Source: Chloroflexota bacterium (GTDB taxonomy: Bacteria; Chloroflexota; Dehalococcoidia; UBA2979). Taken from it: 5,418 bases of DNA. Shown here piece after piece: positions 174 through 377 of the stretch. The notes beneath the pieces were generated by a model, which was not told where the DNA came from, made no database searches, and was given only the letters and a program-made list of their open reading frames with translations. The first letter of the stretch is position 1. Every line of letters starts with the position of its first letter. Made by a program: the position numbers and the translations under genes. The stretch spans positions 1-5,418 of the forward strand of contig PAJB01000018.1 in NCBI GenBank assembly GCA_002710905.1, read 5' to 3'.

Positions 174-204
174 AAAAAAAAACACCCTATTTCTAGGGCG
201 CCTT
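174..204 (-). terminator. Rho-independent terminator, minus strand
   Basis: Read on the minus strand, CGCCCTA (200-194), a GAAA tetraloop (193-190) and TAGGGTG (189-183) form a 7-bp stem with one G-U pair. Two more wobbles and two A-U pairs can extend it to 11 bp (204-194 with 189-179). Nine T follow at once (182-174). The G-U pairs and the GNRA loop exist only on the minus strand; on the plus strand they become A-C mismatches and a TTTC loop, so the direction is clear. It terminates a transcript from the promoter at 349-377. It lies about 140 nt before the minus-strand start at 37 and may be conditional. Confidence 0.82.
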
Positions 205-238
205 AGCTTTTTTCTTTCCGTTATATGCTATTAAAAAA

Positions 239-319
239 TTAAAAGGAAACAGTGCGCCCATATGTAATTAGGGTGCAACACAAGCAGCTTATTAAATTGT
301 TTATATTAATTGTTTCCAC
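239..319 (-). CDS. Putative cysteine-rich leader peptide (26 aa)
   Basis: A minus-strand frame starts at GTG (319-317) and stops at TAA (241-239). Its Shine-Dalgarno is TAAGG (331-327), 7 nt from the start, and the predicted 5' UTR is about 23 nt. The peptide has Cys at residues 12, 14 and 15 (codons TGC-TTG-TGT-TGC, 286-275), and the last Cys codon is the first triplet of attenuator arm A. In known amino-acid leaders, control codons sit next to or inside the first arm in this way. A ribosome stalled at the Cys codons would cover A and free B to pair with C. A ribosome reaching the stop would cover B and let the terminator form. The cysteine-sensing role is inferred. The ORF is short, starts with GTG, and could be a chance frame. 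Confidence 0.42.
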   Translation of the reverse strand: METININNLISCLCCTLITYGRTVSF

Positions 320-348
320 GATGTAACCTTAAAATTTGTCTTGATCGA

Positions 349-377
349 ACTATACAGAAAAGATATTAACCTGTCAA
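349..377 (-). promoter_or_regulatory. Sigma70-type promoter of the leader RNA, minus strand
   Basis: On the minus strand a perfect -35 TTGACA (377-372) and a -10 TATAGT (354-349, five of six consensus bases) are separated by exactly 17 nt. Transcription would start near 342 and run leftward into the leader peptide, the attenuator hairpins and the terminator. No conventional gene lies between this promoter and the terminator, so its product is a leader or a small RNA. The plus-strand gene at 466 diverges from it. Confidence 0.75.

Follow-up and report, generated by a model that had tools for sequence, protein, structure and literature searches.

What controls the gene at the left edge of this DNA, and what signal does the control respond to? 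The window, the whole 5,418-nucleotide stretch that was analysed (GenBank contig PAJB01000018.1), comes from a Chloroflexota bacterium of the class Dehalococcoidia, a strain that we take to be a likely member of SAR202. The original prediction was of a four-arm attenuator with mutually exclusive hairpins, located on the minus strand before the left-edge gene. It named no sensor and overlooked a short leader ORF with a run of cysteine codons. The element appears to be a real cysteine leader-peptide attenuator, more specific than the device first proposed and one of many in front of sulphur-related genes in marine Dehalococcoidia. From evidence that is computational throughout, we put the probability that it is a ribosome-mediated, cysteine-responsive transcription attenuator at about 0.87.

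The leader region and the gene behind it

The leader features are collected in Table 1. A near-perfect sigma70 promoter had been claimed and is confirmed at its place, with 11 of the 12 consensus bases; it is the best match of the promoter scan (4 sites versus 3.1 +/- 1.7 in shuffles), and transcription would start near 342. The leader ORF lies between this promoter and the terminator. Its three cysteine codons are located 18-27 nt 5' of arm B, the codon run ends 15 nt before B, and the run overlaps arm A of the original prediction. A ribosome on this poly-Cys leader is the likely sensor. The GAAA-loop stem ending in nine T was also borne out (stem 204-179, -14.0 kcal/mol), and the terminator scan of positions 1-480 found one terminator versus 0.2 +/- 0.4 in shuffles. 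B is perfectly complementary to six bases of the terminator 5' arm (GGGCGC/GCGCCC), as had been noted, and in its letters CACCCTA (275-269) does match arm D as proposed, being its reverse complement. The folding stability of the whole leader is ordinary (z -0.28).

Table 1. Features of the attenuator region and of the left-edge gene (window positions)
Feature	Position	Strand	Remarks
Sigma70-type promoter	349..377	-	TTGACA (377-372), 17 nt, TATAGT (354-349); consensus scan
Candidate Shine-Dalgarno of leader ORF	327..330	-	AAGG, 7 nt 5' of GTG; by inspection
Leader ORF	239..319	-	GTG start, 26 codons, VETININNLISCLCCTLITYGRTVSF*; stop codon 241-239; poly-Cys leaders recur in relatives
Cys-Leu-Cys-Cys codons, presumed sensor	275..286	-	TGC TTG TGT TGC; Cys at 286-284, 280-278 and 277-275
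Arm A of the original prediction	271..277	-	A:B pairing unsupported (window p 0.62; mean z -0.59 across 29 leaders)
Arm B (antiterminator)	254..259	-	GGGCGC; 18 nt from start of last Cys codon, 13 nt to leader stop
Terminator 5' arm (arm C)	194..204	-	201-196 (GCGCCC) pairs with B
Terminator 3' arm (arm D) and T run	174..189	-	D core 189-183, nine T at 182-174; terminator scan
Lipoprotein gene, Shine-Dalgarno and first 12 codons	1..50	-	AGGGGGG (50-44), ATG at 37, MFFKSLPGFVLV; runs off the window

The left-edge gene is the start of a member of a beta-propeller lipoprotein family. It has 79% identity over 77 nt with a related locus (L013), and its first 12 residues are those of protein P0124. 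For the lipoprotein no Pfam family was found above the cut-off, no NCBIfam family, and no PDB sequence up to E 1. The structure search returned many beta-propellers at similar scores; the fold is therefore assigned, and not the function. In the family alignment (A1) several residues are invariant, among them C135, C213, C262, C319 and C408, and H111, H152, H314 and H443, which could possibly act as disulphides or metal ligands. A DNA search of 250 genomes with positions 1-380 gave five matches, and three of them (L013, L014 and L017) mark the lipoprotein gene start. The other two were dropped, L015 as a match inside an ORF on the other strand and L016 because the gene start is absent at the match (by eye). 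A search of phage records gave two weak matches.

Downstream of the promoter the setting differs from that of the closest genome, G001, a Dehalococcoidia MAG from ALOHA. The Bac_luciferase-family protein (1065-2102) is 92% identical to a protein in the G001 locus L001, and the window and that locus are collinear, with 83% identity, between 375 and the right-hand end. Synteny breaks near 375 (L001 5220-5311), beside the attenuator promoter, and an NAD kinase gene stands there instead; with this break and no leader present, L001 was rejected as a leader comparison. The lipoprotein gene of G001 is located elsewhere (G001:C15) and has another poly-Cys leader type. Two small neighbouring ORFs are conserved in L001: that at 732-920 is a zinc ribbon (PF13248), and that at 466-696, without a Pfam family, has CxxC-like pairs. 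A T run at 79-86 (CGGTTTTTTGC) aligns with the terminator T run of relatives such as L013 and has no hairpin before it; it may possibly be the trace of an older attenuator that was replaced by the present upstream one.

Poly-cysteine leaders in related genomes

Each upstream region was searched for a short ORF that has three or more cysteines within six codons and has a T run behind it. Leaders of this kind precede 11 of 16 lipoprotein-family genes (15 relatives and the window; from the 19 matches L031, L033, L034 and L035, which lack the N-terminus, were removed). The motifs include CCCLCCCLCCC, CCICCCC, CSCC and CLCSCCC, and two of the 11 leaders, L026 and L027, are near-identical. YeeE/YedE sulphur-transporter genes, represented by 30 loci fetched out of 47 genomes with YeeE, have the leader in 18 cases. 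Of 130 background genes, tested over a slightly shorter region, two were positive, both of them in a sulphur cluster (Sulf_transp and DUF4395 of G145); these were set aside after being seen, and the rest gave 0 of 128. Other residues were counted in the same sets, and the larger counts, given in the order 16 lipoprotein, 30 YeeE and 128 other genes, were Leu 5, 16, 38; Val 5, 3, 9; Ile 3, 7, 8; Asn 1, 9, 2; Lys 2, 4, 14; Tyr 0, 5, 4. Asparagine is also raised before YeeE; cysteine is the one residue that is common in the lipoprotein and YeeE sets alike and missing in the 128 others. Promoters with two mismatches or fewer are found 5' of 21 of the 29 poly-Cys leaders, versus 2 of 29 reversed controls.

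Some regions depart from this pattern. Twelve of the 30 YeeE regions fail the test; by eye, three of these (L188, L189 and L207) appear to have another operon gene in front of them, and two (L204 and L215) have short ORFs with two or three cysteines, below the filter. L018, L019 and L023 share a conserved leader peptide, MLIRF(K/E)DDLFHLC, with one cysteine codon only, a strong promoter and a hairpin downstream. Pairing of GGGCA(T) with (A)TGCCC is present in L018 and L019 but is not significant (p 0.30 and 0.18), and the upstream region of L023 has no T run; these leaders may stall by another rule. No such leader was found upstream of L022 and L032.

Leaders were also sought by pattern and by peptide. 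A CCxCC search of 14 genomes gave many matches, those listed including none from G228, G232, G233 or G238. Of 81 distinct sites (the listed loci and 60 stretches from six genomes), 4 among the matches listed passed a mechanical filter; L085 and L127 were accepted, and L094 and L102 were rejected. Leader-peptide searches gave matches in 11, 22 and 5 of 250 genomes, many of them weak, and among 12 matched loci whose leaders were read, L142 (an already-known leader), L143, L149 and L176 were accepted. The genes behind poly-Cys leaders include Sulf_transp, DUF4395 and peroxiredoxin: at L127 (G145:C63) the leader ...SCCTCCLLKQKNLEVSLGKF* and a terminator-like hairpin precede an AhpC/TSA peroxiredoxin gene. 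L085 and L176 have the leader before a 205-residue protein without a Pfam family. Related leader peptides also stand before different genes within one genome (G145:C36, with three in G145; G001:C7 and C15; G227:C23 and C61), as if leader cassettes had been duplicated within genomes.

Arm pairing and the proposed switch

For the window by itself, the pairing of B with C is of borderline significance (p 0.077, 0.057 and 0.047, according to which of three regions was shuffled), and it becomes convincing only through the relatives. The 75 nt before each terminator were compared with the terminator 5' arm against dinucleotide shuffles. Complementarity at p<=0.05 was obtained in 23 of 29 poly-Cys leaders, a set that includes the window and L214. 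Among other terminators it was seen in 5 of 32, and among 742 cross-family pairings in 13.9% (Mann-Whitney p 5e-7 and 2e-12); the 32 terminators come from a loosened filter, the stricter one having kept a single terminator. Arm sequences vary and the pairing stays, for example GGGCGC/GCGCCC, GAGGTC/GACCTC and GCGAGGT/ACCTCGC. Leader counts are inflated by relatedness, and with one leader per group B:C passes in 10 of 14 groups, which were made by eye (13 or 14 groups). The signal is absent in L030 and L199 and misses p 0.05 in L192, L202, L203 and L212.

Across the 29 leaders, the median distance from the first base of the last cysteine codon to the beginning of B is 16 nt, and that from the end of B to the leader stop is 5 nt. 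The window distances are those of Table 1, the 13 nt being counted from the six-base B; the automatic duplex extends past B (B-end to stop, -14). Thus a ribosome stalled on the cysteine codons would leave B open, and one that finishes the leader would cover it.

Arm A had been proposed as the working partner of B. The two can pair with one mismatch, yet no better than chance: in the window the region 290-245 folds at -8.2 kcal/mol, not better than shuffles (p 0.62). Over the 29 leaders the mean z for A:B is -0.59 (Stouffer -3.2), hardly beyond the mean of about -0.5 that two control sets give on the B:C measure, and z is below -2.5 in five leaders only (L020, L021, L202, L206 and L210). The protector hairpin that a four-arm (trp-type) attenuator requires is not supported by the window or by the 29 leaders taken together, and the element is therefore read as three arms with the ribosome as the switch. 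The relatives bear out the rest of the predicted switch: a leader with its own promoter, in which an antiterminator and an intrinsic terminator are the alternatives, and which stands before the left-edge gene. A functional arm A is not supported. The homologues keep B, with its sequence changed and its complementarity preserved, and their testimony goes against arm A.

The lack of support for A:B weighs against a switch made of RNA alone, like a riboswitch or T-box, in which a ligand or a tRNA would decide between A:B and B:C. Such a switch would account for the pairable A and B and for a B:C pairing that is real across relatives. However, A:B does not exceed chance either in the window or over the 29 leaders, and the feature that recurs is a set of cysteine codons in a short ORF, with RNA sequences that differ. 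Within the attenuator no Rfam family attains its gathering score, and the window as a whole yields neither a T-box nor a riboswitch up to E 10; the only sub-threshold overlaps with the attenuator are Phe_leader (25.1 bits versus a gathering score of 55) and mir-454. We consider an RNA-only switch very improbable.

A constitutive small RNA, or a plain upstream terminator, would give a 170-nt transcript ending at 174, with the lipoprotein promoter between 174 and 37. The distance from terminator to ATG, about 120 nt here versus 21-63 nt in most relatives (101 in L036), speaks for it, as does the homology with the relatives' post-terminator sequence, which starts only near 79. It is nonetheless improbable: the consensus scan shows no promoter-like site on the minus strand from 174 to 37, and the leader ORF, cysteine codons, B and C are all present, spaced as in relatives. 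The leader might also be a remnant, one that has decayed or has been copied to the wrong place; this is suggested by the synteny breakpoint beside the promoter, by the borderline B:C pairing and by the fact that just three cysteine codons are left. A remnant is hard to reconcile with an 11/12 promoter, a terminator of -14.0 kcal/mol, an exact six-base B:C match and an open leader ORF, and this possibility can be given hardly any weight.

The preferred reading is thus ribosome-mediated attenuation. The promoter is followed by a short ORF in which regulatory codons are clustered, and this in turn by an intrinsic terminator 5' of the structural gene. The region also has an antiterminator arm, complementary and suitably spaced when the 29 leaders are taken together, borderline in the window alone. 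We infer the course of expression from this layout. Transcription would begin near 342 and a ribosome would translate the 26-codon leader. When charged Cys-tRNA is short, the ribosome would stall on the cysteine codons at 286-275 with its leading edge just before B; B would pair with C before D is made, no terminator would form, and transcription would enter the lipoprotein gene. With ample cysteine, a ribosome at the leader stop would cover B, allowing C:D to form and transcription to terminate near 174. In masked folds, a ribosome on the cysteine codons gives B:C before D is made and one at the stop codon gives no B:C. The terminator appears in 6 of 6 full-length folds, whether or not a ribosome is masked in them, which means that any switching would need to be kinetic. 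In leader RNA that is not translated, B:C likewise arises ahead of the synthesis of D, and loss of translation is therefore predicted to favour read-through.

The putative regulon and known leader attenuators

On a broader view, marine Dehalococcoidia may have a cysteine-starvation (sulphur) regulon that operates largely via poly-Cys attenuators, with cassettes that have spread by copying between the genes of one genome, and with YeeE/YedE import, DUF4395, peroxiredoxin and the orphan lipoprotein under one signal. We lean slightly towards this proposal. If true, control by the same signal as the sulphur genes implies a sulphur-acquisition or thiol role for the lipoprotein, an orphan family that becomes approachable through regulation instead of homology. 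With the attenuator, cysteine supply becomes a signal that can be tested for these genes, which belong to uncultured bacteria of the ocean.

Amino-acid leader attenuators of the trp/his type consist of a promoter, a short ORF with regulatory codons, an antiterminator arm and an intrinsic terminator. The window shares the promoter, the regulatory-codon ORF, an antiterminator arm between the codons and the leader stop, and the intrinsic terminator. It differs in the amino acid, cysteine, in having no conserved protector hairpin (arm A) and in phylum. The genes controlled differ as well, import and lipoprotein genes in the Dehalococcoidia leaders versus a biosynthetic operon in the trp/his type.

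Closer in amino acid are the poly-Cys leader ORFs described in PMC1262725, which lie upstream of the cys operons in Mycobacterium and Propionibacterium and upstream of cbs in Bifidobacterium. As in the window, a short ORF rich in consecutive cysteine codons stands ahead of sulphur genes. In the actinobacterial leaders a conserved terminator hairpin was not found and Rho was suggested, whereas the window has an intrinsic terminator and a matching antiterminator; poly-Cys leaders with intrinsic terminators are thereby extended to Chloroflexota. A citing paper (PMC13236596) refers to the mycobacterial ORFs as translation attenuation. For SAR202 genomes, PMC5864207 reports thiosulphate/sulphate transporters and rhodanese. 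Searches of an open-access library, judged by their listings, yielded no report of cysteine leader-peptide attenuation in Chloroflexota/SAR202 or before YeeE.

In Firmicutes, histidine leader peptides are described upstream of hisZ and of paralogues of hisS (PMC2965389); 'Chloroflex' and 'Dehalococcoides' are absent from the text of that paper. Those leaders differ from the present ones in amino acid, phylum and genes, and share with them leader-peptide attenuation outside the classical phyla and the placing of similar leaders before different genes. The mechanism is of a known kind; what is new, as far as was searched, is the lineage, the regulon and the connection with an orphan lipoprotein.
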